In this document: positions 33,210 through 35,267 of the stretch, piece by piece | How positions within the stretch are numbered: position 1 is the first letter of the stretch | Layout of the letters: every line of letters starts with the position of its first letter | Program-made: the position numbers and the translations under genes | The notes under the pieces: generated by a model | What the model was told of the DNA's origin: nothing | Databases searched by the model: none | What the model saw: only the letters and a program-made list of their open reading frames with translations | Assembly: GCA_013153515.1 (NCBI GenBank) | Contig: JAADEI010000018.1 | Coordinates: 1-35,267, forward strand | Source of the DNA: Chlorobiota bacterium | Lineage (GTDB): Bacteria; Bacteroidota; Bacteroidia; JAADEI01 | Direction of reading: 5' to 3' | Length of the DNA: 35,267 nucleotides

Positions 33210-34438
33210 CAATCGGATTTCCGTTGTAGGAATAACAAAGCCAGAAGGAGGATAATTCCAGAGATTATGAGTATGGTTCCATTAAAGATTACGGGGAGAT
33301 GTGCTGTTTCGGGACTTTCGGACAATCCAGTTATAGCAAAGAAGGAAATTATCAATATCCTAAGAAAAACGTTAAAAGCGTCAAAAAATCCGAGGACTCT
33401 GCCTATGAGGTGGTTGGGGACCCTATGGAACAGGTATGTTAGTCTCATCACTCGGGCTCCCCCATTGGCAAAGCCAAAGAAAAACCTAAGGATTAATAGG
33501 AGAGCCACTGTGGGCATCAGTCCAAGAATCACATAGCTTATTCCCACTGTGAAAAGTAAAATCAATATCCTGACAGGGATGTTTCCCGTGCCGAACTTCC
33601 ACAGGAGGAGAGCTACGGTTACTGCCCCTGCCCCGAAAAGCCCTTCTGAGAATGTATAGACCTGTCCCTGAGCATTGAGGACTCTATCCACGAAAGCAGG
33701 CATGACATAAAACGAATCAAGAAGTGTAACAAGGAAAATCATATATGAGGTGATTCCGAAGATGAACAGGAAGGGTCGTTTTTTCAGGAACGTGAAGGCG
33801 TCTCTCAAGCGGTCAAAGACAGATGCTGTGGACTGCTTCGGCGGAATGTATGTCTCTGTAATGAATTTCCACAGGGCAACGAGCATAACTATTACTGACC
33901 CGATGAACAGGAGGGAGGCAACCCCTAAGACCTTTTCCGGCGTAGCAAACTTCTCAAACAGGACTGTTGAGATGAGTCCTGATGACATGGCGGCTATCTG
34001 CCCGGAAATTTCAATCCATATGTTGAGTTTGGCATACCATTGGGGAGAGACCATTGATTGCCCAAGGGCATAAATGGAAGGATAGAAGATGGTTGCCAGA
34101 ATGGTTAAAGGAACGAACAGTCCAACAAACACATAGGACAATGCTGAATTGGAAACGAAGGCTATGATAGTGCCTATGACGAGAACAAGGGAGTAAAGCG
34201 AGACGGCAATCATAAGCAATTTCCGTCTTGGAAACCGATCAACGATTGTCCCGCCGTGCAACGACCAATACAAGCCCAAAATAGTTATGCCCAGATAGAG
34301 CAAATCAAACCAATTCTTCGTCTCAGGTAGGCTATTGAGAAACCAAATGAACACAAGGAAAAGGAGCCACTGAGTGGTGTTCATGAACAGAAATGCAACC
34401 AAAAGCCACGTTAAACTTGTTCTTATTTGTGAAGTCAT
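33209..34438 (-). CDS. MFS transporter, enterobactin-exporter/MFS_3 type
   Basis: Twelve-helix permease of 409 aa from the ATG at 34438 (MTSQIRTSLTWLLVAFLF). The loop 2-3 motif reads GGTIVDRFPRRKLL, as in the MFS_3 group that includes enterobactin exporter EntS and macrolide pumps. Further helices are evident, e.g. FFFGFANGGARVMRLTYLF with the loop PNHLIGRVLGFFDAF. The frame extends upstream to 34558 but that part is antisense to recX. Coupled to the GNAT gene, it could form a two-gene export and modification unit for one compound; this is inference. Confidence 0.88.
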   Translation of the reverse strand: MTSQIRTSLTWLLVAFLFMNTTQWLLFLVFIWFLNSLPETKNWFDLLYLGITILGLYWSLHGGTIVDRFPRRKLLMIAVSLYSLVLVIGTIIAFVSNSALSYVFVGLFVPLTILATIFYPSIYALGQSMVSPQWYAKLNIWIEISGQIAAMSSGLISTVLFEKFATPEKVLGVASLLFIGSVIVMLVALWKFITETYIPPKQSTASVFDRLRDAFTFLKKRPFLFIFGITSYMIFLVTLLDSFYVMPAFVDRVLNAQGQVYTFSEGLFGAGAVTVALLLWKFGTGNIPVRILILLFTVGISYVILGLMPTVALLLILRFFFGFANGGARVMRLTYLFHRVPNHLIGRVLGFFDAFNVFLRILIISFFAITGLSESPETAHLPVIFNGTILIISGIILLLALLFLQRKSD

Positions 34439-34447
34439 AGGACTACG

Positions 34448-34455
34448 CAAAATTA
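34448..34455 (-). promoter_or_regulatory. Bacteroidota-type -7 box for the MFS-GNAT pair
   Basis: TAATTTTG on the minus strand, ending 9 bases before the MFS ATG. It lies in the 22-base gap to recX, so the -33 region would be within the recX coding sequence. The leader would be almost absent. Confidence 0.45.
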
Positions 34456-34460
34456 AAACG

Positions 34461-34928
34461 ATGGAACCGGAATTGAAGATGGAGCAACTTCTGAGGAAAG
34501 CAATCAGATGGTGTATCAGGACGGAACGCACGCCGGCGGAGGCTAAAGCATGGCTCAAACGGAAATATCATCTGGACGACTCGGAAGCAAGCAAAATAGT
34601 ATCTCTTCTGGAGCAATGGGGCATCATTGACCTTAACAGGTTCATGGAATATGCCTATTATGAACTATGGGAGCAGAAAAGGTACGGGCGGCTCAAAATA
34701 CGTGGCTTATTGGAATCACACATGTTGCCAGAACCTTTCATTGAAGTGATTATCGCAATGATTGACGACGAGGAATATGCCCAATTTTTGAGGAATAAAA
34801 TCCTTGAACTATACGAATCGGGGCTATCGGCTCAAAAAGTACTCTCCAGATTGCTTAGCAGAGGATTTGAAAAAGACCTTATAGTTGAAATAATGCGGGA
34901 ACATGGGTTGATTCCTGATGAGGAGTGA
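34461..34928 (+). CDS. recX: RecX family regulatory protein
   Basis: Modulator of RecA filaments, 155 aa, all helical. RKAIRWCIRTERTPAEAKAWLKRK and IVSLLEQWGIIDLNRFMEYAYYEL match the first RecX three-helix repeats (the usual DxxF/YA), RYGRLKIRGLLESHMLPEPFIE the second, and AQKVLSRLLSRGFEKDLIVEIM the third. I chose the ATG at 34461 because upstream codons overlap the divergent MFS gene. recA is not in the window. No promoter was recognised for it; it would have to lie inside the MFS gene. Confidence 0.9.
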   Translation: MEPELKMEQLLRKAIRWCIRTERTPAEAKAWLKRKYHLDDSEASKIVSLLEQWGIIDLNRFMEYAYYELWEQKRYGRLKIRGLLESHMLPEPFIEVIIAMIDDEEYAQFLRNKILELYESGLSAQKVLSRLLSRGFEKDLIVEIMREHGLIPDEE

Positions 34929-35002: not shown

Positions 35003-35010
35003 TATATTTG
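35003..35010 (+). promoter_or_regulatory. Bacteroidota-type -7 box for the heptamer-repeat gene
   Basis: TATATTTG fits TAnnTTTG exactly and ends 20 bases before the ATG at 35031, within the range seen for other genes here. No -33 TTTG at 17-23 bases. Confidence 0.5.
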
Positions 35011-35030
35011 TAATACAAAATAACAGTGCG

Positions 35031-35267
35031 ATGAGTAAGAGACATTACTTTCTGGCTTCTGGCTTCTGGCTTCTGGCTTCTGGCTCTAACGCCTCTACAC
35101 CTCGTGGCTCAAATAAAACTTGAACCGTGGATAAACGGGATTATAAGTTGTCAAAAAATGGGGCTTCAAAATACAACAAGAAATGCTATGGCTAAAACAA
35201 GTTCATTAATTCTTACTTGTAATCTCCGCTATTTATTTTATATAAGCGATGCAAAATCAATAAACTA
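35031..35267 (+). CDS. candidate phase-variable secreted/surface protein, OFF allele, 3' end beyond window
   Basis: The ATG at 35031 opens a 30-codon frame (MSKRHYFLASGFWLLASGS...) that stops at 35121-35123 as sequenced. It passes through five TTCTGGC units. From 35086 on, the +1 frame is open to the window end (about 60 codons) and encodes LTPLHLVAQIKLEPWINGI. Removing one unit (four copies) puts the ATG in that frame and gives basic SKRH, a hydrophobic core, and LVA before Gln, a textbook signal peptide. Copy numbers 1, 4 or 7 would be ON; 5 and 6 OFF (six gives an immediate TAA at 35087). The mature product is not recognised. A repeat-count assembly error would look the same. Confidence 0.55.
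35050..35084 (+). repeat. tandem heptamer TTCTGGC, five copies
   Basis: Five perfect consecutive copies of TTCTGGC, 35 bases, in the hydrophobic core of a signal-peptide-like coding region. The unit is not a multiple of three, so each gain or loss by slipped-strand mispairing changes the reading frame. Confidence 0.95.

Follow-up and report, generated by a model that had tools for sequence, protein, structure and literature searches.

A heptamer array within the putative signal peptide of an exported protein in an uncultured Bacteroidota genome: a probable translational contingency locus

The stretch of DNA analyzed here (35,267 nucleotides; hereafter "the window") is the whole of contig G000:C125, which belongs to the draft genome of a deep-sea-type Bacteroidota (2.2 Mb in 146 contigs). 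Close to its 3′ end, a recX-like gene (34374–34928) is followed by a Bacteroidota-type −7 box (TAnnTTTG, here TATATTTG; 35003–35010), an ATG 20 nt 3′ of the box (35031–35033) and an array of five perfect TTCTGGC copies (35050–35084) 16 bases past the ATG; all of these features are on the plus strand. As sequenced, the frame opened by this ATG (35031–35123) comprises the n-region MSKRHY and the array and ends with a TGA after 30 codons (translation MSKRHYFLASGFWLLASGSNASTPRGSNKT). Repeat, start codon, box and 30-codon frame were read directly and are as described in the initial annotation. The chance expectation for perfect five-copy arrays of period 7 is approximately 1e-12 per window and 6e-11 per 2.2 Mb, and chance is a negligible source of the array.

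A heptamer does not divide into whole codons, so that one unit gained or lost changes the frame in which the array is left. Further, 7 and 3 share no factor, and consequently the same heptapeptide, LLASGFW, is encoded whichever frame is read, the copy number altering the exit frame only. This peptide is the hydrophobic core of a putative signal peptide, which was called from the n-region, the core and the LAAQ/LVAQ end. The end (LTPLHLVAQ; 35086–35112) is encoded in the +1 frame, which also starts the coding sequence of an exported protein and runs to the contig end (35086–35267). With four units, the same ATG leads into this frame and the translation, MSKRHYFLASGFWLLALTPLHLVAQIKLEPW..., contains a complete signal peptide and is open to the window end, as had been proposed for an array shortened by one copy. 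According to a table of unit numbers, the +1 frame is reached (ON) at 1, 4 or 7 units and missed (OFF) at 5 or 6. In these features the locus resembles a contingency locus: a perfect repeat, with a unit that does not fill whole codons, lies within the start of a coding sequence.

Position 35267, 183 bases past the array, is the contig end, and the exported gene can therefore not be read further in G000. The rest of it is absent from all other G000 contigs, so that the sequence of the gene past the array amounts to no more than 60 codons in this genome. An orthologous locus was found in a genome of the same genus (G001, L086; JAJRPU010000118.1, isolate Dive100_bin10.107). In a study of the Southwest Indian Ridge (PMC9769843), "Dive100" labels a diffuse vent sample; G001 is linked to that study by name only. 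In G001 the frame is open (MSKRNYWLLVTGYWLLALTPLHLAAQLQ...) and encodes an exported protein of 584 aa, 5′ of a gene for a protein with a type IX secretion system (T9SS) tail. The +1 frame of the window matches residues 5–76 of this protein up to the contig end (64% identity, E-value 1.2e-26), and the 60 codons past the array contain neither an indel nor a stop relative to G001. The box (in the same letters), the ATG, the n-region MSKR and the signal-peptide end LTPLHL (LTPLHLAAQ in G001) are conserved. From the open orthologue and the homology of the +1 frame it follows that the window is OFF and G001 ON; unit number would thus decide between a full-length product (G001, 584 aa) and a truncated one (window, 30 codons). 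The sequence comparison strongly supports two suggestions of the initial annotation, namely that an exported protein is genuinely encoded in the +1 frame and that this assembly is OFF; its expectation of a frame that has a homolog and does not close early also held, as G001 is open over 584 codons. For this homolog, neither Pfam or NCBIfam models nor a PDB sequence search gave a match to a known family or structure, and these same searches revealed no sequence homology to the Opa family. A structure prediction without alignment was uninformative (pLDDT 31).

At the position orthologous to the (TTCTGGC)5 array, G001 carries (TTACTGG)5. Both arrays have five units, every unit differs at two positions, and the flanks are conserved. 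G001 is ON at 2, 5 or 8 units and hence at its five, in contrast to the window, because the 5′ junction differs as well. Exactly four copies in relatives, which would have spoken for an assembly error, were therefore not what was seen. A sample of about 166 kb from G001, plus two pieces of G002, a further related genome, contained no other perfect short-unit arrays. The two genomes thus carry distinct arrays at one site and none elsewhere in their sampled parts, which suggests that the array expands or is exchanged more quickly than the flanking DNA and argues for active expansion or replacement of arrays at this site. In G000 itself, no further TTCTGGC array of at least three units occurs anywhere in the genome. 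G000 was also considered as a genome rich in repeat switches, but this was rejected, as 270 kb sampled from it contain no second perfect short-unit array (periods 2–12), in which it differs from classical contingency-rich genomes.

The surroundings of the array are partly shared between these genomes. G000 and G001 have in common the order MFS-type transporter (on the opposite strand, labeled from a reading of its sequence), recX-like gene, box, ATG, heptamer array and exported gene. The recX-like ORF of the window extends from a GTG at 34374, although its conserved start is probably an ATG near 34449–34479. Its match to the NCBIfam RecX models is weak (E-value 3e-7, far below the cut-off); its orthologues are 94% identical in G001 and 84% in G002. 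Between window and G001, dN and dS are 0.29 and 0.53 for the exported gene and 0.025 and 0.48 for recX (dN/dS 0.54 and 0.05, respectively); the exported gene evolves fast, and the place where it lies is variable. In G002, a CRISPR-like repeat tract lies 3′ of recX in place of the exported gene. Fast evolution and replacement of the locus are as expected for a variable surface gene, but the dN/dS of 0.54 is also compatible with relaxed constraint. The gene following the exported gene in G001 (588 aa) ends in a Por_Secre_tail-like sequence, a T9SS C-terminal tail which scores just under the curated cut-offs (Pfam 23.5 vs. 27; NCBIfam 22.7 vs. 23). From this neighbor, a surface location of the exported protein may be surmised. 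The 588-aa gene was not found anywhere in G000, while G002 has a 35% identical relative of it next to a sequence that looks like the remains of a transposase; 3′ of the 588-aa gene, G001 encodes a protein of 241 aa whose start resembles a signal peptide. The CRISPR-like repeats of G002 (GTCAAAGACCACC.TCCATTAAAACAAGGA; G002:C276, end of L047) lie directly 3′ of recX. G003 contains a distant relative of the 584-aa protein (21% identity) without a heptamer array. Near the start of this relative (L050:3100–3250), a CA dinucleotide run is translated as THTHTHTHT and is possibly another repeat-based control.

In our assessment, these data are best explained by a translational contingency locus with phase variation similar to that of opa genes, and we consider this reading probable. 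An ATG and an n-region containing lysine and arginine would be followed by the heptamer array, from which the hydrophobic signal-peptide core is translated, and past the array by the signal-peptide end and the mature exported protein. Slipped-strand mispairing would add or remove one unit and thereby shift the exit frame, with the array still coding for LLASGFW. Four units (or one or seven) would then give the full exported protein, five or six a short peptide, and the G000 assembly with its five units would represent the OFF state. We infer that such slippage takes place in living populations and that the switch has an adaptive value.

CTCTT repeats share with TTCTGGC the property that all three frames give the same hydrophobic peptide. 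Such repeats occur in the leader-peptide coding sequence of the Neisseria opa genes (PMC3745409), which are the closest working analogue of the window locus: in opa, a unit that does not fill whole codons lies within the coding sequence of a signal peptide, and the number of copies determines whether an exported protein is read in frame, as predicted for the window and its putative signal peptide. In contrast to opa, the window unit has 7 bases instead of 5, the host belongs to the Bacteroidota and the protein is unrelated; moreover, the window array stands alone where opa genes form a family, its unit differs between sister species, and switching is deduced from sequence. In Haemophilus influenzae, the hmw repeats sit in the promoter region and tune transcription. 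These heptamers are cited as phase variable (PMC5953494) and, as predicted for the window, control an exported protein, whereas the window array lies inside the gene and acts on the reading frame. TAACTGA heptamer repeats of Beggiatoaceae, Cyanobacteria and Bacteroidetes are mostly intergenic, 5′ of start codons, and a regulatory role was proposed for them (PMC4679880). They too form tandem arrays of heptamers, in some Bacteroidetes as well, but with another unit and with a regulatory role as opposed to the frame switching proposed here. Unit length is the only feature which both hmw heptamers and TAACTGA repeats have in common with the window array. The literature covered, which is incomplete, contains no account of Bacteroidota signal peptides coded by heptamers.

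Other genomes were searched for comparable arrays by patterns which took in the GGYTWCT family of units only. Arrays of four such units were present in 11 of 395 genomes of the class; many are intergenic and several lie in signal peptides. The four-unit and three-unit searches together yielded the signal-peptide arrays MKKHFYLFLLASGFWLLASSDSFAQ, MKKIFFWLLASGFWLFVACTS, MKTTLLTSFWLLATGYWLLATENQ, MHLRRLNILSWLLASGFWLLTSLSYSQ and MNTLYIAQRVCFWLLASGFWLLGISCG. A scan of contigs for ATGA followed by a GGYTWCT-type array returned 88 stretches, 80 of which were analyzed. Among these 80, ten resemble signal peptides and are ON; they come from Bacteroidota (G001 among them), Omnitrophota, Elusimicrobia and Levybacteria, and no signal-peptide array is clearly OFF; the window, which is OFF, is itself outside the 80. 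Altogether, the pattern searches gave at least 15 further heptamer arrays in signal peptides that are ON, where random frames would leave about one third ON, which indicates that such arrays are usually kept in frame. The initial annotation had called it hard to explain by chance that the alternative frame completes the signal peptide. As an argument for a switch this is weakened, since heptamer arrays form signal-peptide cores in many unrelated genes and are nearly always in frame, so that the architecture alone does not prove switching.

L095, L113 and L133 were rejected as out-of-frame candidates, because ordinary starts lie past the array. The Poribacteria loci L132 and L154 initially seemed to be OFF but were left out of the count, as an upstream GTG is in frame with the gene. 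In these two Poribacteria (L132:5610–5810, L154:5890–6090), a GGTTACT signal-peptide array is preceded on its 5′ side by complementary CCAGTTA-type repeats, which could pair into a long hairpin where the gene begins. Which codon starts translation is uncertain, the ATG being out of frame with the gene and the GTG in frame.

A TPR-type lipoprotein in the genus of G159 (L207–L213) provides a second orthologous comparison. In five of seven species, its signal peptide contains different heptamer arrays (units TTCTGGC, CTTCTTG, TTGTACA, TGTACTT or TTTTTAC), all ON, and in at least one further species degenerate heptamers, likewise ON; the flank SCSQKKNTF/GCSQKKNTF is conserved. In a 249-kb sample of G062, one of the genomes with these lipoprotein arrays, the lag-7 identity of signal-peptide-like starts, classified by a simple rule of our own, is 0.312 compared to 0.279 ± 0.007 after codon shuffling. 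No such excess exists in other G062 gene starts (0.266 vs. 0.264), and at the signal-peptide starts of G000 and G001 it is not significant.

These observations bear on a different reading of the window, namely that heptamer expansion merely builds the signal-peptide core, selection keeps its frame, and the OFF state is a fixed or recent lesion in a dispensable, fast-evolving gene. The wide ON bias of heptamer arrays favors this reading in general. It is in keeping with in-frame cores in unrelated proteins of Bacteroidota, Omnitrophota, Elusimicrobia and a Levybacteria genome, with the lipoprotein arrays exchanged within one genus, with the lag-7 excess in G062 and with the dN/dS of the window gene. 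A lesion in a dispensable gene fits less well with codons past the window array that have acquired neither stop nor indel, with an intact promoter box and n-region, and with a frame that a one-unit change is enough to restore. For the window we regard this reading as possible but rather unlikely, and the frame difference between the sister species favors switching at this locus.

Two further explanations would make the OFF state only apparent. A contig end 183 bases past the array, in a draft metagenome-assembled genome of 146 contigs, is a place where a sequencing or assembly error could hide a true number of four units and thus a gene that is ON. Nevertheless, the sister assembly G001 likewise has five units, and a perfect array of 35 bases is shorter than a read and should be assembled correctly; ordinary short reads span more than 35 bases. 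An error is, therefore, quite improbable. The exported protein might also be made in spite of the OFF frame if ribosomes shifted frame in the array or initiated within or after it, and a slip in the array would presumably still yield a signal peptide, as the peptide is the same in all frames. On the other hand, G001 needs no such event, the +1 frame contains no ATG, GTG or TTG between its TGA at 35032–35034, which overlaps the window ATG, and the array, and later starts would lose the signal peptide. We consider such expression very improbable.

Seen together, the window and the other arrays may point to heptamer microsatellites as recurrent raw material for signal-peptide cores, with expansion creating and repeatedly replacing cores of unrelated exported proteins in several bacterial phyla and with frame-differing loci as the subset which acts, or is able to act, as switches. 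This generalization, on which our own opinion is evenly divided, would exploit the property that a heptamer array encodes one hydrophobic heptapeptide in all three frames. Host-adapted pathogens such as Neisseria are known to have repeat-driven signal-peptide switches. If the window locus is indeed a contingency switch, the mechanism would extend to environmental bacteria (uncultured, probably free-living Bacteroidota), and the gene fed by a heptamer switch would adjoin that of a type IX substrate. That sister species have rebuilt orthologous signal peptides from arrays of different units suggests a general route for the origin and turnover of secretion signals, which is testable in existing genomes.

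Heptamer arrays of the same family were also observed outside signal peptides. A dTDP-glucose dehydratase-like gene of Shewanella sp. c952 (L149:320–545, reverse strand) has six GGTTACT units in the region coding for the LVTGGTGFIGS motif; its ATG does not lead into the frame of the gene, which is possibly a phase-variable polysaccharide gene. G070 has 31 matches to the four-unit pattern, and its contigs C197 and C300 (L069, L076) carry GGTTACT/GGTTTCT arrays of up to 23 units.
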